Shown here one piece after another: positions 23,571-36,060 of a stretch of 64,000 nt of DNA (the stretch's first letter is position 1; every line of letters starts with the position of its first letter). A program made the position numbers and the translations under genes. Where the stretch lies: the NCBI GenBank assembly GCA_007859745.1, contig SMLU01000001.1, forward strand, positions 3,100,001-3,164,000, written 5' to 3'. The notes below the pieces were generated by a model. That model was not told the origin of the DNA. It saw nothing but the letters and a program-made list of their open reading frames with translations, and searched no databases. This stretch comes from Phycisphaerae bacterium RAS1. Its GTDB lineage: Bacteria; Planctomycetota; Phycisphaerae; UBA1845; Fen-1342.

Positions 23571-23647
23571 GTAGCGTCGGCCCTCTGCGGCCGACGGCGG
23601 TCCTTCGGAGTTTTGGCGCATCGTCGGCGACGGAGGGCCGACACTAC
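23571..23647. repeat. GTAGCGTCGGCC inverted repeat, copy 1
   Basis: GTAGCGTCGGCCCTCTGCGG ... GGAGGGCCGACACTAC. Its right edge supplies the TAG stop of the gene ending at 23644. A second copy is at 56002. Confidence 0.85.
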
Positions 23648-24411
23648 GTCGCATGTTCGTGAATTCGCCCGATCAGCCGCAAGAGCCCGTCCAGGATCGT
23701 CAATGGGTGGGGGGGGCAGCCCGGAACATACAGATCGACGGGCAGGATTCCTTCCACGCCGTTCAGAACGTCCGGGCTATCGCGGAAGGGTCCGCCGCTG
23801 ATGGCGCACGCGCCGACGGCAATCACGATTCGCGGCTTGGGAACGGCTTCGTACGTCCCGAGCAGCGCCGCGTGCATATTGCGCGAGACGGCGCCCGTCA
23901 CGAGCACGCCATCGGCGTGCCGCGGCGACGCCACGAACTGAATTCCGAAGCGCGACAGATCCCAGCCCACCGTGTTCAACACATTTGTGTCCAAGTCGCA
24001 GGCGTTGCAGCTTCCGGCGCACACCTCGCGCAGCCGGAGGGCGCGGCCGAGAATCCGGTGCAGCTCGTCCGACATCCGCTGCGCAAGTCTCAGTTCGCCG
24101 TTGCCGATCACCAGGTCGGTCCGGCGCGACGTCGCCAGGCGGTAATCCTGCGTATAGCGAATGGCGCCTTCGGGACAGGCGTCGACGCAAGCCGTGCAGA
24201 ACAGGCACTTGCCCAGGTCGAGCTTCAGGCCGCCATCGGTGCTGATGGCCTGAGTGGGGCACGCCTCGATACAGACTCCGCAACCGTCCGGACACTTCGC
24301 AGCGTCCAGTTGGGGCCTGCCGCGATAGCGCTCCGGCAGAACAGGCAGTTGCACGGGGAACCCGGTCGTCCGGTGTCCCTGGTGCAGCCGCGTTTTCAGG
24401 ATTTGCAGCAT
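23644..24411 (-). CDS. Ferredoxin-small subunit fusion of the hydrogenase-like complex (HyfH/HyfI-like)
   Basis: 255 aa. Residues 40-80 hold two 4Fe-4S ferredoxin motifs (C40, C44, C47, C51 and C69, C72, C75, C79). Residues ~115-250 are a NuoB/HycG-type small subunit with cluster cysteines C135, C138, C202 and C232 (GSCNACD, VGACAISGG, VPGCPPHP), the N2-like proximal cluster. Two proteins that are separate in E. coli Hyc/Hyf are one here. It would carry electrons to or from the large subunit at the cytoplasmic face. It is the last gene of the operon, 50 bases after the large subunit. The TAG stop is part of the adjoining repeat. Confidence 0.85.
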   Translation of the reverse strand: MLQILKTRLHQGHRTTGFPVQLPVLPERYRGRPQLDAAKCPDGCGVCIEACPTQAISTDGGLKLDLGKCLFCTACVDACPEGAIRYTQDYRLATSRRTDLVIGNGELRLAQRMSDELHRILGRALRLREVCAGSCNACDLDTNVLNTVGWDLSRFGIQFVASPRHADGVLVTGAVSRNMHAALLGTYEAVPKPRIVIAVGACAISGGPFRDSPDVLNGVEGILPVDLYVPGCPPHPLTILDGLLRLIGRIHEHAT

Positions 24412-24461: not shown

Positions 24462-26005
24462 TCACACGTCATGCCCCGCGTAGCTGAGGTTAAAGCTCTT
24501 GTTGCAGACTGGAAAATCGGAGATCGCCATGCCGCGCAGCGCCCGCGCCAGCCCGAACCAGTTGTGCATCGAGGGATCCTTGGCCTTCATGCACGCCAAT
24601 TTGCCCGCCGCGTCGGTGAATGCGACGTGCATCGCCTCGCCGCGCCACGTTTCGGCGACTCCGAACGCCATCACATTCGGTTTCAGCTCGCCCAGCGGCT
24701 CAAAGATCGTCCCGCCGGGCTTGTTTCCGAGCAGCTCCAGGAGGAACTCGAGCGAGCGCTGCACCTCCAGCCAGCGAACGACCGCCCGGGCGTACACGTC
24801 TCCGGTCGTCTCGACGGCGATTGGAATATGGCTGAACTGGAACACGCCGTGGGGATGATCGCAGCGCACGTCGCGCCGGCATCCGCAGGCGCGCGCCGCC
24901 GGACCGACCAGGCCGATCTCGTCGGCCTGCTGCTCGCTCAGCGCTCCGACGCCCTCGAAGCGTGCGAGCACCGATGACTGGGCGAACATCAGGTCGAGCA
25001 CTTCCAGCGTTTCGCTCCGCAGGCCCTCCAGGCGCTGGCGCATGCGTTCTGCGGATGCGAGCGGGATGTCGAAACAGACGCCTCCGGGACGCAGCAGATT
25101 TCGCCCGAAGCGGTTTCCACAGATTTCGAGCGTCAGGTTCAGATACTCGCCGCGAAGGCGGCCGAGATAGGCCGACGCAGGCAGGAAGGCCACGTCGGTG
25201 CATAGCGCCCCCAGGTCGCCCACGTGATTGGCGAGCCGCTCCAATTCCAGGGCGACGCCTCGAATGGCGGCCGCCCGCAGGCTGACCCTGCTTCCGGCCA
25301 GCGCCTCCAGCGCGGTGCAGTAGGCCAGCGCGTGCCCGATGGACGCGTCCCCGGCAATGGTCTCGGCCACGATCGCCGAGCGCGTCGCATTCGGGTGGAG
25401 CAAGAGCCGCTCGGCGCCGCGATGCTGGTAGCCGAGCACAATTTCCAGGTGGAGGACTTCCTCGCCGTGACATTGAAAGCGGAAATGCCCGGGTTCGATG
25501 ATGCCCGCGTGCACGGGGCCGACGGCGACTTCATGGACTTCCTCGCCCTCGACACGATAGAACGGGTAGTCGCCGGGGATGGCGCGGTTGGGATCGAATG
25601 GTCCCCACGGCGCGGGCGACCCGTCGTCGGTGGCGTGGTAGCGCAGCGGTTTGAGCCAGGGGTGCCCCAGCGGATGCACGCCGAACTGCTCGGCGATTTC
25701 CCGCTCGAAGGCCTGGGCGGCCGGCCATTGAGCCGAGATCGACGGGTAGGCCGGCGCGGCCTGAGCTTCGGGTCCGCGTCGCACATCCGTCGTGCAAACC
25801 TCGAACCGACTCGCCGAATCAAACGCCAGAAACGCGTACAAACGGATGGTGTCGGCGGAAACACGCCGGCCGAAAAGATTCGCCAGGCGTCCGCCGCGTG
25901 CGCGGCCCGCCAGCACGTGGTCCGCGAACCCGTCCGCGGCCAGCGCCGGGATCTTCGACAGGTCCGCCGCCTGGCCCTGCCGGATGGTCAGCCAGCCGCC
26001 GCCGT

Positions 26006-26009
<4 letters not shown>
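24462..26009 (-). CDS. Large subunit of hydrogenase-related complex (HyfG/HycE-like, NuoC-NuoD fusion)
   Basis: 515 aa. Residues ~60-130 are NuoC/30-kDa-like (FEREIAEQFGVHPLGHPW). Residues ~150-515 are NuoD/HycE-like (VGPVHAGIIEPGHFRF, LGYQHRGAERL). Where [NiFe] enzymes have ERxCGxC, this protein reads ETIAGDASIGHA (A219-G-D-A222). The terminal DPCxxC is SDFPVCNKSFNLSY, with one Cys (C502). The nickel site is therefore absent, as described for Ehr complexes. The GTG at 26009 gives a GTGA overlap with the HyfF-like gene and has GGAGG upstream. The true substrate is unknown. Confidence 0.85.
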
Positions 26010-27502
<1,493 letters not shown>

Positions 27503-27503
27503 G

Positions 27504-28166
27504 TCATGATTCCTTGAGCACGTCGAGCAGGTGCGTGTCCATGTGGTCAAACTCGCGCCGGATGTGGTAGACCACGATCGCCATGATGAATACGCCGACG
27601 AAGAGGTCGAGCAGGATTCCCAGCTCCACCAGCAGCGGTGTTTGTTTCAGCAGCAGCAGCCCGAGAATGAAGATGCCGTTTTCGAGCACCAGAAAGCCGA
27701 GCACCTGCGTAATCGCCTTGAGACGGCTCACGAGCGTGAGCAAGCCGAGCAGCAGCGTGGACAGCGCGACCGGCACAATCAACTTCGACACGGGTTCGGT
27801 CGGCAGCGGCAGCCGCACGGCGACCGCGAAGCTGCCGATCACGAGAATCGCGCCGACAAACACGGACGCGGTGAAGCCGATGAAAGGCTCGACCTCGCGG
27901 TGCACCTCGCCGGTGCGGATGATCCGCAGCAGGATGTAAGGGATCAGGATCACCTTCAGCGCGATCGTTCCGGCGGCGATGACGAATCCGTGCAGGCCGA
28001 GCGGCTCGCCCTTGAAGACATCCCCCGCCAGCGGCAGAAACGCCAGCAACAGGCTCTGCAGCGCGAACAGGCGGACTCCGGACGCCAATCGGCTGACAGC
28101 GAGCATGCCGAGATTCAGCAGAATGACAAGCACCAGCACGGAGTCGATGATCGTGTGTGCGTTCAA
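27504..28166 (-). CDS. HyfE-like membrane subunit
   Basis: 220 aa, the same size as E. coli HyfE (~216). Six or seven helices, with a C-terminal part like NuoK (GFLVLENGIFILGLLLL, then LVELGILLDLFVGVFIMAIV). It starts at TTG 28166, giving a TTGA overlap with the HyfC-like stop. It probably forms part of the ion path between the HyfC-like anchor and the antiporter subunits. Confidence 0.85.
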   Translation of the reverse strand: MNAHTIIDSVLVLVILLNLGMLAVSRLASGVRLFALQSLLLAFLPLAGDVFKGEPLGLHGFVIAAGTIALKVILIPYILLRIIRTGEVHREVEPFIGFTASVFVGAILVIGSFAVAVRLPLPTEPVSKLIVPVALSTLLLGLLTLVSRLKAITQVLGFLVLENGIFILGLLLLKQTPLLVELGILLDLFVGVFIMAIVVYHIRREFDHMDTHLLDVLKES

Positions 28167-29098
28167 TTCAGACTCCGCGTAAGAGTCAATACCGCCGCCA
28201 GCGCCGCAAGAACCGATGCACTCGCCAGCAGCAGCGGCACGCGATTCAGACGCAGCCGCGCCATGGTTGATTCGATGACGCCGACCAGCACGGCTAGTGC
28301 GGCGAGCTCCAGAAACCGCAGCGGCACATCGACCCACAAAGGCCAGCCCGGATGCGGAATCGCCGCGTGAAGCAGGATGGACCCCAGCAGCGTGAACTTG
28401 AGCGCCGCGGCGTACGTGATGTACGCGAAATCCGGGCCGCTGTGGTCCAGCACCATGACCTCGTGGATCATCGTCAGTTCGAGGTGCGTTGCCGGGTCGT
28501 CAACCGGCACGCGGCAGGTCTCGGTCAGCAGCACGATCATCAGGGCGCCGACGACCAGGAGCATAGCGGGTCCGGCGGTCGCCCACGCGGTGTAGAGCTG
28601 GCTGCCGATCATCTGACTGAGTTGCAGGCTCCCGGTCGCGATCGCCAGGACGGTGAATGAAAGGAAGAGCGCCGGTTCGGACATCGCGCCGAACGTCACC
28701 TCGCGGGATGCTCCCATCCCTTCAAAGCTGCTGCCGGTATCCATGGCGGCCAGCACGGTGAGCATCCGTGCGAGCGCAAAAAGATAGGCCACCAGAATCA
28801 GGTCGCCGGCGAATCCCAGCGGCGCGTCGGACGACAGGACGGGAATGAGCGTTGCGGCGGTCAGCATCGCGGCCAGGTTTACGATCGGGCCGGCGCGAAA
28901 AATCCAGGTCGTCGTCTGGCTGTAGACGACGCCCTTGCGCATCAGCTTGTGAAGGTCATAGTAGGGCTGGAGCCAGGGCGGGCCGTCCCGACCGCCGAAC
29001 CACGCTTTCGTTTTCACGATGGCGCCCAGCAGCAGCGGCGGCAGCGCCAGCACCAATGCCGCCTCTGGAATAGCCGCAACGACGCGCAGCGCGTTCAC
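28163..29098 (-). CDS. HyfC/HycD-like (NuoH-type) membrane anchor
   Basis: 311 aa, about eight helices. NuoH-family features: RDGPPWLQPYYDLHKLMRKG, ALARMLTVLAAMDTGSSFEGMG, TETCRVPVDDPATHLELTMIHEVMVLDHSGPD is present in shorter recognisable pieces with the conserved acidic residues. This subunit joins the cytoplasmic arm to the membrane arm in complex I-like enzymes. The GTG at 29098 gives a GTGA overlap with the upstream HyfB-like gene, with GGAG 8 bases before it. Confidence 0.88.
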   Translation of the reverse strand: MNALRVVAAIPEAALVLALPPLLLGAIVKTKAWFGGRDGPPWLQPYYDLHKLMRKGVVYSQTTTWIFRAGPIVNLAAMLTAATLIPVLSSDAPLGFAGDLILVAYLFALARMLTVLAAMDTGSSFEGMGASREVTFGAMSEPALFLSFTVLAIATGSLQLSQMIGSQLYTAWATAGPAMLLVVGALMIVLLTETCRVPVDDPATHLELTMIHEVMVLDHSGPDFAYITYAAALKFTLLGSILLHAAIPHPGWPLWVDVPLRFLELAALAVLVGVIESTMARLRLNRVPLLLASASVLAALAAVLTLTRSLN

Positions 29099-31263
29099 TT
29101 TGACACTCCGTCGACCGTTTGCGTAGCGCTGCCGGCCGCCCCCGCCTCCGAACCGTGCGATGAGAGCGATTCGATGCAGAAGACGACGAGCAACGTCAAT
29201 ACGAGGAAGGCCATGTACATGTGAATCCGTCCCTGCCGCAGCGCTGCAACCATGCCGGTCGCCAGCGTACGCAGCGGTCCCACGCGGCCCGGCGCTACGC
29301 CCGGCTCCGATTCCAAGGCGGGCTCTCCCGTCCACGAGACAGTCCGGACCATTCGAAACGCGCGGCTCACACCCCCAAGCAGGGGCGCAAAGAAGTCGTG
29401 TTCGGCCATGTCTGGTGTGTGGGTTTCGAGTTGGGCATGCCCGGCGAATGTGCCGGTCGGCGCCGCGAGTTTGCGATCCGGCCAGATCAGGTGGCGCAGG
29501 CTCTGGATGAGCGGCCACGCGAACGACGATGCAGAGTATTGCATGCGCGCCGAAGGCCAGGAGAATCCGCATCCCCACGTCGCGCCCGCCGGGGCCGGTT
29601 CGGCCAGATTGCGCCGCAGGAGGGTTCGCCGCGTAATCGCCAGCGCCGCGACGCCCGCCAGCAGAACCGCGGCCAGCATGCTCAGTTGCGTCGCCGGCGC
29701 GAGCGTCGACTGCGTTGAGCGCGCGAACTCTCCCCCGTTCAAGCCGCTTACGGCCCCCACGCCGGCCGCGGTAAGCGGAACGAAGACCCCGGGCAACACG
29801 CCGATGCCGATGCAGAGCAGCGCGGGGATCATCATTCCCACGCACATGGCTCGCGGCGTCGGATGAGCCGGGAGCGTCGCATCTCGCGGCTGCCCGAGGA
29901 ACACGACGCTGAAGACCTTGGCAAAGCACGCCAGCGCCAACCCGCCCATGAGCGCCAGCGACATCGCCGCCATCGCAGCCATGCCGGCCGACCAGCGCGA
30001 CGTGTTCATCGCGCCCCCGAACAGCGATCCGTAGAGAATCCACTCACTGACAAAGCCGTTGAAGGGGGGCAGGCCGCAGATCGAGATGGCCGCAACGAGG
30101 AACAGCGCCGCGTTGACGGGCGTCCTGCGGGAAAGTCCGCCGAGCCGCTCAATATCCCCCGTGCCGGTGGCGTGAATGACGGCCCCGGCCGAGAGAAACA
30201 GCAGTCCCTTGAATAGCGCGTGATTCAATACGTGCAGCAGCGCCGCGCCGTAGCCGAGCGCGACCAGCGCCGGCAGGCCGAGCGTCTGGCCGAGCATCCC
30301 CATGCCGATGCCCAGACCGATGATCCCGATGTTCTCCACGCTGTGATAGGCCAGCAGCCGTTTGATGTCGTGCTGCGCGAGTGCGTAAAGCACACCCAGA
30401 ACGCCGCTGACCATCGCAAACAGGAGCATCACGACGGCGCAGCCGGTCGGCAGGCTGGGCAGCCAGCCAAGCAGGCGCAGCAAGCCATAGATGCCGGCCT
30501 TGATGACGACGCCCGAAAGCAGCGCCGAAACCGGACTGGGCGCGGCGGGATGCGCCACCGGCAGCCAGACGTGCATCGGCATGAGGCCGGCCTTCGTTCC
30601 AAATCCGAGCAACCCGAGCAGGAATAGCACGGTGCTGGCGCCAGGATCGGCCCCCTGAAGCGCGGCGCGAAAAGCATGCAGATTCGTGGTTCCCGCGGCG
30701 GCGACGAGCATCCCGAAAAGCGGAAGGACGAAGAGCGCCGTGCCCAGGTGGTTCGCAATCAGATAGACCCACGCCGCGCGACGCACTTCCTCCTGGCGAT
30801 GGTGAAAGAGAATGAGGAAGAACGAGCCCAGCATCATCAGTTCCCAGGCAAACAGGAACAGCGCCGCATCGTCGGCCGTGACCACGAGGATGAGCGCGGC
30901 GACCAGAACGCACAGGAATGCGCCGAGGGATGGAACCGGCGCTCGGCCAATCTCGGCCTGCAGGTACGCCCACGAGTAGATGGCGACGGCGACGCTCACC
31001 AGGGCAATGGTGACCAGGAACCATGCCGACAGACCGTCCAGGGCCAGTCGAGCTTCTCCCAATGGCATGGGCCAGTGGACCGTTGTCACGGGCGCGTCTC
31101 CGTCCTGCAGCAGGCAGGGCAGCCCGGCGGCCAGACAGAGAACCGACGCGCAGGAGATTGAGAACATTGCGACCAGCAACGCGACACGCGGCATCCGCCA
31201 AAGCAGTGCGGACAACGTGGCGCCGCCAACAAGCACGGCCAGGCTGGCGAGGATCGCGGTCAC
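29095..31263 (-). CDS. HyfB-like antiporter subunit, second tandem copy
   Basis: 722 aa, NuoL/HyfB type. The core ion-translocating motifs are FLFAWELMMLGSFFLILF, GFGTKAGLMPMHVWLPVAHP and LLAYHSVENIGIIGLGIG. After ~14 helices comes a long tail with WGCGFSWPSARMQYSASSF, seen in HyfB C-termini, and a last helix MAFLVLTLLVVFCIE. The GTG at 31263 overlaps the previous gene (GTGA). It is clearly homologous to the gene at 31260-33359 over its full length, including the tail motif, so the pair is a duplication. Confidence 0.88.
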   Translation of the reverse strand: MTAILASLAVLVGGATLSALLWRMPRVALLVAMFSISCASVLCLAAGLPCLLQDGDAPVTTVHWPMPLGEARLALDGLSAWFLVTIALVSVAVAIYSWAYLQAEIGRAPVPSLGAFLCVLVAALILVVTADDAALFLFAWELMMLGSFFLILFHHRQEEVRRAAWVYLIANHLGTALFVLPLFGMLVAAAGTTNLHAFRAALQGADPGASTVLFLLGLLGFGTKAGLMPMHVWLPVAHPAAPSPVSALLSGVVIKAGIYGLLRLLGWLPSLPTGCAVVMLLFAMVSGVLGVLYALAQHDIKRLLAYHSVENIGIIGLGIGMGMLGQTLGLPALVALGYGAALLHVLNHALFKGLLFLSAGAVIHATGTGDIERLGGLSRRTPVNAALFLVAAISICGLPPFNGFVSEWILYGSLFGGAMNTSRWSAGMAAMAAMSLALMGGLALACFAKVFSVVFLGQPRDATLPAHPTPRAMCVGMMIPALLCIGIGVLPGVFVPLTAAGVGAVSGLNGGEFARSTQSTLAPATQLSMLAAVLLAGVAALAITRRTLLRRNLAEPAPAGATWGCGFSWPSARMQYSASSFAWPLIQSLRHLIWPDRKLAAPTGTFAGHAQLETHTPDMAEHDFFAPLLGGVSRAFRMVRTVSWTGEPALESEPGVAPGRVGPLRTLATGMVAALRQGRIHMYMAFLVLTLLVVFCIESLSSHGSEAGAAGSATQTVDGVSK

Positions 31264-33359
31264 GGGGCCCCGCCATTTCCCGGCAGAATCGCCGGCATCG
31301 GCCCGGCGGACCGAATCGCGCTTGTTGACGCGGTTTCCGTTTTCAGTCGTGCGTTCGAGAATGGCGAATACCACGCCTCAACCGCAAAGACGGTCAAGAG
31401 CGTGGCGACGATGTACATGAGATAAAGCTGAACGCGGCCGTGCTGGAGCGGCCACAGTCGCTCGCAGGCCCGCGCGATCAGGAGAAAGGCCGGTCGATAG
31501 CCGAATTGGACGGCGGCGTCGGCCGTTTGCGTGCTCAGGCTGCTCTCGGCGGCGAAACTGCCCGACGGCCGCATCGCGTCGCGCCGCGATCGCAACAAAT
31601 CGCGGAAGCTGTGAACCAGGTCCCACGCATACGACGATCCCGTGTACTGCATGCGCGGCGTTGGCGCGGCGTAGCCGCATCCCCACGTCACTTGCCGGCC
31701 CACCATTTCGGGCCGACTCTGGCGGCGGCGAAGGACGACCAGCCCGGCGCCGACGCCGATGACCAGCAAGGACATGCCGCTGACCCAGCCCAGGGGCGAC
31801 AGAATCGTATCCAGGTACTCCTGCGCAGCGCCGCGCGGCCCGCCAATGACGGTCAGGGGCGCTTCAAACACCCTGCCGAGGAGCGGCGCGCCAAGCGCGG
31901 CCATGATACATCCCAACGCCAGCAGGGACATTCCGGCTTGCATGGACAGGGGCGTCGCGTGGACCTGCACGCCGGCGTCGCGCGGCTCGCCCAGGAACAT
32001 CACGCCGAAAAGCTTCGAGAATCCCGCCAGCGCCAACCCGCCCATCAGCGCCAGCGCCGCCACGCCGACCAGCGCGAAAGCCGCAACCAGCAGCGAGTTC
32101 AGCGCCGCGCCGCGCAGCAGGCCGCTGTAGATCAGGAATTCCCCCACAAATCCGTTGAGCGGCGGCAACGCGCAGATGGCCGCGCACCCGATCCCGAACA
32201 GCGCGGCGTTCCGCGGGTCGCGCCGCGCCAGACCGCCCAGCCGCTCGATGTCGCCGACGTTGGTTGCGTGCAGGACGGCTCCCGCCGACAAGAACAAAAG
32301 CCCCTTGAACAGGGCGTGATTCAGCACGTGAACCAAGGCGCCGCCGAAACCGAGCACCGCCAGCACAGGCTGATGCGTCGCCCGGCCGAGCATTCCGAGC
32401 CCGATTCCGAGGACGATGATGCCGATGTTCTCGACGCTGGAGTAGGCCAGCATGCGCTTGTACTGCCGCTGGGTCAGCGCGTACAGAATCCCCATCAAGC
32501 CTGTGACGACCGCGAACCCCACCACGACCAGCGCGCACCAGCGCGGCAGCGGCGGAAGCCAGGAAATCAGCCGCAGCAGCCCGTAGATGCCGGTCTTGAT
32601 CACCACGCCGGACATCAGCGCTGATACGGGGCTGGGAGCGACAGGATGCGCCTCGGGCAACCACACATGCATCGGCATGATCCCCGCCTTGGCGCCGAAG
32701 CCCAGCAGCCCCAGGAAAAACAGCAGGACGCATGTCGTCATTTGCGATGCGTCAAAGGCGCCCGCGAAACTGGCGAAGGAAGTCGAACCGGCTCGCGCCG
32801 CGAATACTCCGAAAGCGGGAATGACGCCGAAAGCCGTTCCGAGATGCGTGGCGACCAGGTACATCCACGCGCCATGCCGCGTCTGCGGGTCGCGATGATC
32901 AAGACCGACCAGCAGAAACGCCGACAGGCTCATCAGCTCCCAGCCGATCAGAAACAGAACGACGTCAGCCGCGCAAACGGCGATGACCATGCCCGCCACC
33001 AGAACGTTCAGCAGCGCGCCCACCGCCCATGTGGCCCCGTTGGGAATCGCGCTGAAAAAGTAACCCCAGGAGTAGATCGCGACCGCGGCGCTGACGAATC
33101 CGATCGCAAGCAGAAACCACGCCGACAAGCCGTCGATCATCAGTGACGCGGACCCAATGGGAAGCGGCCAGGCGACGCTCAGCGCCTGCGTCCTCGAAAC
33201 CGGCAGGAGCACCCGCATGGCCGCGCCGCAGCAAACCAGCCCGGCGACGCCGATGCAGCCGAGGGCGACTGCCAGCGCCGCGGGCGGGCGCCGCGCCATC
33301 ATGATCGAACCGACCGCACCGGCTGCCAGGAAGATGAGTGCCAGCGGCACTTCGATCAC
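31260..33359 (-). CDS. HyfB-like antiporter subunit, first tandem copy
   Basis: 699 aa, NuoL/HyfB type. Motifs: FLIGWELMSLSAFLLVGLD, GFGAKAGIMPMHVWLPEAHP, MLAYSSVENIGIIVLGIG and ALPPLNGFVGEFLIYS. The tail carries WGCGYAAPTPRMQYTGSSYAW, parallel to the second copy. The GTG at 33359 gives a GTGA overlap with the EIIA gene. It is the first structural gene of the membrane complex. Like its twin it keeps the TM5 Glu and TM7 Lys, so both copies could pump ions. Confidence 0.88.
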   Translation of the reverse strand: MIEVPLALIFLAAGAVGSIMMARRPPAALAVALGCIGVAGLVCCGAAMRVLLPVSRTQALSVAWPLPIGSASLMIDGLSAWFLLAIGFVSAAVAIYSWGYFFSAIPNGATWAVGALLNVLVAGMVIAVCAADVVLFLIGWELMSLSAFLLVGLDHRDPQTRHGAWMYLVATHLGTAFGVIPAFGVFAARAGSTSFASFAGAFDASQMTTCVLLFFLGLLGFGAKAGIMPMHVWLPEAHPVAPSPVSALMSGVVIKTGIYGLLRLISWLPPLPRWCALVVVGFAVVTGLMGILYALTQRQYKRMLAYSSVENIGIIVLGIGLGMLGRATHQPVLAVLGFGGALVHVLNHALFKGLLFLSAGAVLHATNVGDIERLGGLARRDPRNAALFGIGCAAICALPPLNGFVGEFLIYSGLLRGAALNSLLVAAFALVGVAALALMGGLALAGFSKLFGVMFLGEPRDAGVQVHATPLSMQAGMSLLALGCIMAALGAPLLGRVFEAPLTVIGGPRGAAQEYLDTILSPLGWVSGMSLLVIGVGAGLVVLRRRQSRPEMVGRQVTWGCGYAAPTPRMQYTGSSYAWDLVHSFRDLLRSRRDAMRPSGSFAAESSLSTQTADAAVQFGYRPAFLLIARACERLWPLQHGRVQLYLMYIVATLLTVFAVEAWYSPFSNARLKTETASTSAIRSAGPMPAILPGNGGAP

Positions 33360-34057
33360 CGTGCGCCCCCCCGGGCCTTGTCGGCCTGGAGCACGCGCCG
33401 CTCGATCTCCGCCGATTTCGTGAGGATCGCGTCCTCGGCCGCCCGCCGGTCGAGCAGCTCGCGGAATTGGCCGTCTTGCAGGGCGAACATGAGGTGGCTG
33501 AGGAGCGTCAGGTGGATGTGCACGGTTGTGCTGATGATGACGAACAGAACCGTCACCGGTTTCTTGTCCAGTGCACGGTAGTCAATCGGCTGGCTGAGAA
33601 ATGCGAGCGAGACGCTGGGTTCGGCCAGGCCGAGCACGATCGGGCCGCGCGGGTGCGGAATCGCGACGCCGTTGCCAATGCCGGTGGAGCACAAAGCCTC
33701 GCGCGCCAGGAGCACGCTGAGCAGTTCGTCCCGGTCGATCTGCTCCGGCAGTTTCAGCCGCGCACACACTTCGCGCAGCGCCGAAGTCTTGTCGGTGCAG
33801 GGGACGTCCTGGAGAACTCCACCGCGCGCAAGGGCGCCTGTCAGCAGCAGGTCGCCGTCCGCCTGCTGGTTTTCATGAAAGAACTCGGGCGCGACCTTGA
33901 TGCTGCGCGCCGCCGCCCATTCGAGCAGCTCGACGCGGTTCAATCGATAGCGGTCCTTGACCCGGTAGCTCGGCAGCGTGCCGTTGCGAATCCACGCGTA
34001 GATCTGGTCCTCGTTGACATTGAGCATCCGTGCGGCGTCTTTGGCGGTCAGATCCAT
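33356..34057 (-). CDS. HTH-PTS EIIA (nitrogen/fructose-type) fusion protein
   Basis: 233 aa. Residues 1-55 are an excisionase/MerR-type helix-turn-helix (TAKDAARMLNVNEDQIYAWI, then RYRLNRVELLEWA). Residues ~75-220 are a PtsN/FruA-like EIIA phosphocarrier with the phosphorylatable His135 in GNGVAIPHPR. No membrane sugar permease is encoded, so it is probably regulatory. GGGAG lies 8 bases before ATG 34057. It sits 11 bases after aspS and overlaps the first HyfB-like gene (GTGA). This makes it a likely sensor of PEP/carbon state or a controller of the membrane complex. That link is inference from gene order. Confidence 0.82.
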   Translation of the reverse strand: MDLTAKDAARMLNVNEDQIYAWIRNGTLPSYRVKDRYRLNRVELLEWAAARSIKVAPEFFHENQQADGDLLLTGALARGGVLQDVPCTDKTSALREVCARLKLPEQIDRDELLSVLLAREALCSTGIGNGVAIPHPRGPIVLGLAEPSVSLAFLSQPIDYRALDKKPVTVLFVIISTTVHIHLTLLSHLMFALQDGQFRELLDRRAAEDAILTKSAEIERRVLQADKARGGAR

Positions 34058-34068
34058 GACCGTGCTCC

Positions 34069-36060
34069 CTACTTCTTGGCCGGCAGCGCCGTGCGGATGA
34101 ACAGCTCGGCCAACTGCTTGTCGTCCACCGGGCTGGGCGCCTCCGTCAGCGGACAGAAGAACTCCTGCGTCTTCGGAAAGCTGAACGTGTCCAGCAGGCT
34201 GTCCAGTCCGTTCAGCAGCATCACCATGCGGTCCACGCCCATCGCGAACCCGCCGTGCGGCGGCGGACCGTGCCGCAGGGCTTCGAGCAGGAAGTTGAAC
34301 TTGAGCTTCTGCTCCTCGGGTGTCAGCCCCAGCAGACGGAAAATCTGCGCCTGAACGTCGCTGCGGTGAATACGGATGCTGCCGCCGGCCAGCTCGACGC
34401 CGTTGACGACCACGTCGTACGCCTTGGCGCGGACCTTCAGGGGGTCGCTCTCGAGCAGGTGCACGTCTTCGTCCATCGGCGCGGTGAACGGGTGATGCAC
34501 CGCGTAGTGCCGGCCGTCCTCGGCGTGATACTCCAGCAGCGGGAAATCGACCACCCACAGGAAATTCCACAGGCCCTTCGGAATCAGGTTGCGGCGGCGG
34601 GCGATCTCCTCGCGCAGCCGGGCGAGGAACTTGCAGACGTTGGCTTCGGTGTCGGCGGCGAAGAAGATGCAGTCGCCTGCATTCGCCCCGGTTGCGGCCA
34701 GTAGTTCGGCGGTGAGCGCCTCGTTAAAGAACTTGGCGACGCCCGTCTTCAGTTGTAGCCCGGCCGCCCCCGGCCGGTCCTGCAGCCCGGCCGCCCCCGG
34801 CCGGTCCTGCAGCCCGGCCGCCCCCGGCCGGTCCTGCAGCCCGGCCGCCCCCGGCCGGTCCTGCAGCCCGGCCGCCCCCGGCCTGAGTTCGCCGCTGTTG
34901 CCGACGGGACCGCCCGTGGGCGGGCGGGCTACATCGCCCGTGGGCGGGCGGGCTACATCGACCTTGACATACGGCAGCCCGCCGGCGCCGATTCCCTTCA
35001 GGATGTTCTGATAGCTGGTCTCGGCCTTTTCGATCTCGCTCTGCGAAATATCCGCGCCGCCGGGCACGACGACGCAGCGCACGCAGCCGCCTTTTTCGAT
35101 CGGGCCGGTGAACACCTTGAAATCCGTCTTGCGCGCGACCGCGGTCACGTCCCTGATCCGCAGATCGTAGCGCGTGTCGGGCCGGTCGATGCCATACTCC
35201 GCCATCGCCTGCGCATACGACATCCGCGGCAGCGGGTTGGGCAACTCGACGCCCAGCATCTCCTTCCACACCACCCGCAGATACCCCTCCGCAACCTTCA
35301 GGACGTCGTCCATCTGAATGTAGGACATCTCGACGTCGAGCTGCGTGAACTCGGGCTGGCGGTCCTTGCGGCTGTCCTCGTCGCGAAAGCAGCGGACGAT
35401 CTGCATGTACTTGTCGAAGCCGCTGATCATCAGGAGCTGCTTGAAAAGCTGCGGCGACTGCGGCAGGGCGTAGAACGTGCCGGGGTGCTTGCGCGACGGA
35501 ACGAGAAAGTCGCGAGCGCCCTCGGGCGTGCTCTTGGTCAGGAAGGGCGTTTCGATCTCGATGAAGCCCTGCTTGTCGAAATAATCGCGGATGAGCTTGA
35601 CCGCCTTGTGCCGCGAGATCAGCGCCTTCTGCATCACCGGCCGGCGCAGATCGAGATAGCGATATTGCAGCCGCAGCTCGTCGTTGACGTTGATCTCATC
35701 CTCAATCAGAAACCGCGGCGTCTCGGACGTGCTGAGAATGTCGATCTCGTGCACGTTGATCTCGACCGTGCCGGTTTTCATCTTCGGATTGACCATCTCG
35801 AGCGGACGGGCCGCGACCTCGCCCCGGATGCAGATGCAGAACTCGCTCCGCAGCCGGCCGGCGGTCTCGTGGGCTTTCGGATCGGTCTGCGGATTGAACT
35901 TGATCTGCACGATGCCCTCGCGGTCGCGCAGGTCGATGAAAATGATCCCGCCGTGATCCCGGCGGGTATGAACCCAGCCGGCGAGGACGACGGGCTGGCC
36001 GATCCGTGTCGGACCGACCTGACCGCAATAGCAGGACCGCTGATTGTAGGCAAGCGCCAC
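34069..36060 (-). CDS. aspS: Aspartyl-tRNA synthetase with in-frame repeat insertion
   Basis: Class II synthetase charging tRNA-Asp (possibly also tRNA-Asn). The N-terminal OB-fold shows GWVHTRRDHGGIIFIDLRD. Motif 2 is FRDEDSRKDRQPEFTQLD and motif 3 is GFAMGVDRMVMLL. At 663 aa it exceeds the usual ~590. The excess is residues ~364-434 in the GAD domain, made of two DVARPPTG units and five RPGAAGLQ(D) units encoded by intergenic-type repeats. The frame continues intact afterwards (KTGVAKFFNEAL), so the enzyme is presumably functional with an added loop. Start GTG 36060. Confidence 0.93.
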   Translation of the reverse strand: MALAYNQRSCYCGQVGPTRIGQPVVLAGWVHTRRDHGGIIFIDLRDREGIVQIKFNPQTDPKAHETAGRLRSEFCICIRGEVAARPLEMVNPKMKTGTVEINVHEIDILSTSETPRFLIEDEINVNDELRLQYRYLDLRRPVMQKALISRHKAVKLIRDYFDKQGFIEIETPFLTKSTPEGARDFLVPSRKHPGTFYALPQSPQLFKQLLMISGFDKYMQIVRCFRDEDSRKDRQPEFTQLDVEMSYIQMDDVLKVAEGYLRVVWKEMLGVELPNPLPRMSYAQAMAEYGIDRPDTRYDLRIRDVTAVARKTDFKVFTGPIEKGGCVRCVVVPGGADISQSEIEKAETSYQNILKGIGAGGLPYVKVDVARPPTGDVARPPTGGPVGNSGELRPGAAGLQDRPGAAGLQDRPGAAGLQDRPGAAGLQDRPGAAGLQLKTGVAKFFNEALTAELLAATGANAGDCIFFAADTEANVCKFLARLREEIARRRNLIPKGLWNFLWVVDFPLLEYHAEDGRHYAVHHPFTAPMDEDVHLLESDPLKVRAKAYDVVVNGVELAGGSIRIHRSDVQAQIFRLLGLTPEEQKLKFNFLLEALRHGPPPHGGFAMGVDRMVMLLNGLDSLLDTFSFPKTQEFFCPLTEAPSPVDDKQLAELFIRTALPAKK
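34756..34970. repeat. Tandem repeats inside aspS
   Basis: About five 27-bp units (CAGCCCGGCCGCCCCCGGCC plus GGTCCTG) at 34756-34885, a short unique stretch, then two 24-bp units containing CGGGCTACATCGCCCGTGGG. The first family is the same GTAGCCCGGCCG sequence found between genes at 49343. All units keep the aspS frame. Confidence 0.9.

Follow-up and report, generated by a model that had tools for sequence, protein, structure and literature searches.

The HTH-EIIA gene and its neighbours

The window, by which we mean the whole 64,000-nucleotide stretch of Phycisphaerae bacterium RAS1 DNA that was analysed, carries at positions 33356-34057 of the minus strand a gene for a protein of 233 aa, here called HTH-EIIA. 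An excisionase-type winged helix of the HTH_17 family occupies residues 3-51 (33905-34051, minus strand; Pfam score 49.5 bits against a cut-off of 27) and is recognized by NCBIfam as well, where the ‘excise’ domain scores 41.1 bits, above its cut-off. It is joined to a PtsN-like PTS_EIIA_2 domain at residues 82-212 (33422-33814, minus strand; 87.9 bits, cut-off 27). The codon for His135 (33653-33655, minus strand), the predicted phosphorylation site, aligns with the active histidine of EIIA proteins; the motif around it reads GIGNGVAIPHPR, and the histidine is invariant in 119/119 relatives. This is the fusion, with His135 intact, that an earlier sequence-only reading had described, and Pfam bears it out. 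The AlphaFold2 model consists of two folded domains (mean pLDDT 91, pTM 0.73), and its residues 68-222 match crystal structures of EIIA-Ntr (3urr, Z 18.2; 1a6j, Z 17.4).

EIIA-Ntr, or PtsN, shares with HTH-EIIA the EIIA_2 fold, a phosphorylatable histidine and the EI-HPr relay. PtsN acts as a regulator of K+ and ion transport; HTH-EIIA is encoded with an ion pump, and not with HPr and EI. Unlike HTH-EIIA, however, PtsN has no N-terminal winged helix, and HTH-EIIA scores below the cut-offs of the PtsN equivalog models TIGR01419 (63.3 versus 138.7 bits) and NF008145 (51.7 versus 221 bits).

The gene stands immediately in front of an operon on the same strand. Its stop codon overlaps the GTG start of the first pump gene by 4 bp (33356-33359, minus strand), as the sequence-only reading had it. 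The genes that follow, all on the minus strand, encode two HyfB-like antiporter-type subunits (31260-33359, with a Proton_antipo_M domain and 538.6 bits for Hyf-4 subunit B; and 29095-31374, start uncertain), a HyfC/NuoH-like subunit that belongs to a conserved syntenic block (28163-29095, start approximate), a HyfE-like subunit (27504-28157, start approximate), a HyfF-like subunit (26006-27550), a HyfG-like, NuoCD-like subunit (24462-26024) and, assigned from sequence and synteny, a HyfI/NuoB-like subunit with a fused N-terminal 2x[4Fe-4S] ferredoxin-type region (23644-24411). In energy-converting hydrogenase-related (Ehr) complexes, by definition, the large subunit lacks the CxxC motifs that bind Ni in [NiFe] hydrogenases (PMC6349859). 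Both motifs are missing from the HyfG homologue of the window, and neither HyfG region contains one in any of 48 relatives. Because of this absence, together with the Hyf/Mrp antiporter-like membrane subunits, we class the pump by its sequence as an Ehr complex and not a hydrogenase, with redox-coupled ion pumping as its predicted activity. The cluster labelled ‘Hyf-like’ earlier thus belongs to the Ehr class. The operon shares with known Ehr complexes the antiporter-like HyfB and HyfF subunits, the NuoCD- and NuoB-like subunits and the lack of Ni ligands; tandem HyfB genes with a PTS-type regulator in front are not described in the Ehr literature that we found.

On its other side, HTH-EIIA is separated by 11 bp (34058-34068) from aspS, the aspartate-tRNA ligase gene, at 34069-36060 of the minus strand. 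As aspS ends so close upstream on the same strand, HTH-EIIA does not head an operon of its own here, contrary to what had been proposed, and the gap is too small to accommodate a separate promoter or operator. We rejected aspS as part of the module; it is not a conserved neighbour, and lies beside HTH-EIIA in no other locus that we read.

The relay needed for a phospho-switch is present in the genome, so that objection falls away: EI and HPr are each encoded once, and their genes and that of a distinct PtsN-type EIIA adjoin one another on contig 2. EI occurs in 237 of the 248 genomes of the class that we sampled, and in all 58 of those with a close HTH-EIIA family member. Two further EIIA proteins are encoded in the window genome, one of which is a distant HTH-EIIA paralogue (L009:5765-6472; genome C1:2770782-2771453). 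This paralogue adjoins an EF-G gene, an arrangement that is not conserved, and its subfamily (MPYxNMTLEELARHIGMDAREVRR...) is found in many genomes of the class with no conserved neighbour.

Association with Ehr and ClC genes

The sequence-only reading had staked its proposal on a conserved association with Hyf-like clusters across relatives, and such an association is what we found. Among the 248 genomes, the close HTH-EIIA family (E below 1e-50) is present in 58, an Ehr large subunit in 55 and both in 52 (Fisher p 8e-43, a descriptive value, as related genomes are not independent). Three genomes have Ehr without a detected HTH-EIIA gene; in two of them the contig ends at that point, and only one (G035) truly lacks the gene. 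The Ehr operon immediately follows HTH-EIIA on the same strand at 38/40 loci read in the class and at 18/21 family loci in a wider sample of the phylum Planctomycetota, and HTH-EIIA is upstream of Ehr at 11/20 loci in the Desulfobacterota, a phylum that we reached via a Desulfobacula record. On a tree of 119 HTH-EIIA proteins, the type of neighbour is clustered, with 7 changes against 37.6 when shuffled. The association of HTH-EIIA with Ehr is thus real, and extends to many bacteria of two phyla. At two Desulfobacterota loci (L215, L217), two Ehr clusters lie side by side or back to back around one HTH-EIIA gene.

A more distant HTH-EIIA subfamily is encoded just upstream of another ion transporter, a CBS-domain ClC chloride channel/antiporter. 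Its 25 loci in three phyla (L169-L175, L179, L203-L210, L222, L046-L052 and L054), of which one has a 1.3-kb gap and four are Pfam-verified, comprise nine of the 20 loci reached via Desulfobacula, eight loci of named Desulfobacterota/Aminicenantes records and eight from Planctomycetota. One genome (G799) possesses both an Ehr-type and a ClC-type module. Separately, in one Planctomycetota family (L176-L178) a further HTH-EIIA subfamily adjoins flagellar motor genes of FliM/FliN-like type, and no ion transporter was seen behind the gene.

A direct-repeat operator and the recognition helix

Winged helices related to that of HTH-EIIA bind DNA in a characteristic manner. The HTH_17/MerR-like protein BldC occupies direct repeats of 9 bp in a head-to-tail arrangement, and Lys26 and Arg30 of its recognition helix read the bases (PMC5859096); RdfS and Xis oligomerize along DNA much as BldC does (PMC11963761). 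The HTH_17 domain of HTH-EIIA would therefore be expected to bind direct repeats with a period of one helical turn. Lys26 and Arg30 of BldC, in a sequence that we checked against PDB 6AMA, align with K17 and R21 of the canonical HTH-EIIA proteins; the alignment is a pairwise BLAST match (28% over 43 residues), as a phmmer search of the PDB with the HTH alone found just a weak match to RacA.

A repeat of the expected kind is found in front of the genes. Word counts in the 200 bp upstream of 63 non-redundant Ehr-linked HTH-EIIA genes returned TGTC-N6-TGTC in 33 of the 63 regions, against 0.2 expected, and the resulting matrix reads AAAAATGTCCAnAnATGTCCAAT, a direct repeat TGTCC-N5-TGTCC with a 10-bp period. 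The putative operator usually lies 35-75 bp from the start codon and occurs in both orientations. Where the site is in the ‘-’ orientation, one of its halves falls on a TTGACA -35 box, followed some 17 bp later by a -10-like element, and this overlap somewhat inflates the scores of those sites. Canonical HTH-EIIA resembles BldC, RdfS and Xis in winged-helix family, in the Lys/Arg pair and in a direct-repeat site with a spacing of about one helical turn; BldC, by contrast, consists of an HTH alone, lacks a sensor domain and has an AT-rich site.

Occurrence of the operator follows the recognition helix. We call the helix canonical where it has K/R17 and R21, as in 63 of 83 Ehr-clade proteins, the remaining 20 being diverged. 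In a leave-one-out analysis, an operator above the 95% background level precedes 55/63 canonical genes, and so is missing at eight, but only 1/20 diverged ones. When the matrix was trained solely on loci from the class, held-out canonical genes have the operator in 14/16 cases in the remaining Planctomycetota set and 5/8 in the second phylum (19/24 together), against 0/9 and 0/3 (0/12) for held-out diverged genes. This covariation rests on few events, namely five helix changes on the tree, and the diverged helices cluster.

Four orphan members of the family, with no adjacent Ehr operon, keep the operator, and it is absent from the single Ehr operon that has no HTH-EIIA gene; the site therefore travels with the regulator gene and not with the pump. 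It supports a role for HTH-EIIA as a transcription factor that responds to the PTS and regulates its own gene. A TGTC-N6-TGTC direct repeat also precedes HTH-EIIA genes of Lentisphaerae type (L056-L061) that have no ion pump next to them, a hint that the site predates the link to Ehr. A motif search in front of the ClC-linked subfamily found nothing convincing. In 3 of 12 genomes scanned, the exact motif is unique to this promoter. We make no claim for a wider regulon; the other exact matches are mostly intragenic, and the many copies in one genome (G086) resemble a dispersed repeat, with ATGTCCCAGAATGTCC scattered over the genome (e.g. L234, L244).

The window protein is one of the diverged members. 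Its helix reads NEDQIYAW, with D17 and A21 (codons 17-21 at 33995-34009, minus strand) where most of the Ehr clade has K/R17 and R21, so that, unlike BldC, it has lost the Lys/Arg pair. No operator was found before HTH-EIIA or before aspS, or above chance within the window, and no alternative repeat common to the clade of the window protein was seen in upstream alignments. Several relatives carry HTH-EIIA as a tandem pair (L043, L123-L125, L127), and it is with the second of the two that the window protein groups. In these relatives the first member keeps an SE(K/R)T(V/I)YRW helix and, mostly, the operator, whereas the second has lost both; the window genome is without the first copy. Because the HTH is 88-89% identical to that of its nearest relatives, against 74-80% for the EIIA domain, it is under selection. 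Most likely, the window protein either recognizes another site or exerts its effect on the pump itself, and we rate transcriptional and direct control about equal for this chain.

A proposed PTS-responsive regulator and its alternatives

Our data are best explained by a model in which HTH-EIIA is a PTS-phosphorylated, BldC-like regulator that acts on the TGTCC repeats to control the operon behind it, a reading to which we assign a probability of roughly 0.6. Under this model, the EI-HPr relay would phosphorylate the EIIA domain at the conserved histidine according to the supply of PEP, so that the phosphorylation state would report the PEP and carbon-energy state of the cell. The BldC-like winged helix would bind the TGTCC direct repeats, 10 bp apart, in the promoter of its own gene, and phosphorylation would alter the assembly of HTH-EIIA on the repeat and with it how strongly both the regulator and the ion machine encoded downstream are expressed. 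In one subfamily the controlled operon would be that of the Ehr ion-pumping complex; in the ClC-linked subfamily control would probably operate via other sites. We infer the phosphorylation of HTH-EIIA, its DNA binding and the direction of its regulation, so of the phospho-switch first proposed for this locus, the components are in place (EI, HPr and the invariant histidine) and the switch itself is predicted. Control of operon expression, proposed at the same time, is likely at the level of the family, given the conserved operator, but the case is weaker for the window chain, which has lost K17/R21, has no operator and is attached to aspS.

An alternative that we consider unlikely, though it deserves to be taken seriously, is post-translational control, in which the EIIA domain, phosphorylated or not, would bind Ehr (or ClC) and set its activity, and the HTH would be secondary or purely autoregulatory. 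Such control has a precedent in E. coli, where PtsN in its unphosphorylated form binds to the K+/H+ antiporter YcgO and inhibits it (PMC11808508). It would also account for a window chain that has been kept, complete with its histidine and the 4-bp overlap with the pump gene, despite the changed helix and the lack of an operator. That two unrelated transporter types, Ehr and ClC, are partnered with HTH-EIIA points the same way, as does the occurrence of the EIIA fold as the cytosolic domain of SLC4 anion exchangers. However, the operator is kept with the HTH-EIIA gene even at the pump-less orphans, and the HTH has diverged less than the EIIA domain in the clade of the window protein, which is unlike a vestigial HTH.

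It is improbable that the direct repeat is the site of another regulator, with HTH-EIIA as a passenger or mere target. The phylogenetic clustering of the helix/operator covariation would allow for this, but the presence of the site at HTH-EIIA genes without Ehr, its absence at the Ehr operon without HTH-EIIA and its 10-bp direct-repeat form, which fits binding of the HTH_17/BldC type, all argue against it. We give almost no credence to the notion that HTH-EIIA is an ordinary PtsN paralogue that lies beside the pump by chance: the Pfam EIIA_2 family is common and orphan members exist, but hundreds of genomes from two phyla show the linkage, the genome has a stand-alone PtsN as well, next to HPr and EI, and the NCBIfam PtsN equivalog score is far under its cut-off (63 versus 139 bits).

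If HTH-EIIA is a PTS-phosphorylated transcription factor, as proposed, it has a parallel in PRD-type regulators such as MtlR, CelR and LicR, transcription factors with an EIIA-like domain that answer to PTS phosphorylation. These regulators differ from HTH-EIIA in having PRD domains and other HTH types and in controlling mainly sugar operons; Pfam finds no PRD domain in HTH-EIIA, only HTH_17 and EIIA_2. PRD regulators have been reviewed (PMC8560693). Whilst fusions of EIIA and DNA-binding domains are thus known, the literature that we searched contains neither the pairing with Ehr and ClC genes, nor the operator, nor the correspondence between helix and operator. Proteins of the HTH-EIIA type exist unnamed in databases, also in Chlamydia. 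No description of HTH-EIIA with Ehr or ClC was found in the literature searched, most subscription papers lying outside its reach, and a 2026 review of PTS-Ntr does not mention the terms fused, helix-turn-helix, DNA-binding, hydrogenase or chloride.

A broader proposal, to which we give an even chance, is that HTH-EIIA proteins form a class of one-protein PTS-to-promoter regulators, each composed of an EIIA domain and a BldC-like winged helix, which link PEP phosphorylation state to the transcription of Ehr and ClC genes in at least three phyla via direct-repeat operators. The window protein would then be a duplicated member, re-specialized after loss of the standard operator. The finding joins Ehr complexes to the nitrogen-type PTS, providing a likely output for the relay and a likely regulator for Ehr, and offers a short DNA site that is testable by gel shift. 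In E. coli, EIIA proteins control ion transport by protein-protein contact; the finding suggests a transcriptional form of this control elsewhere.

A minor observation concerns the neighbouring aspS gene, which contains in-frame tandem repeats at 34757-34960 of the window, a 27-bp unit present 4.7 times and a 24-bp unit present 2.1 times. Both repeats are 100% identical and encode RPGAAGLQD repeats in the GAD/insert region, and the reading frame stays open throughout.
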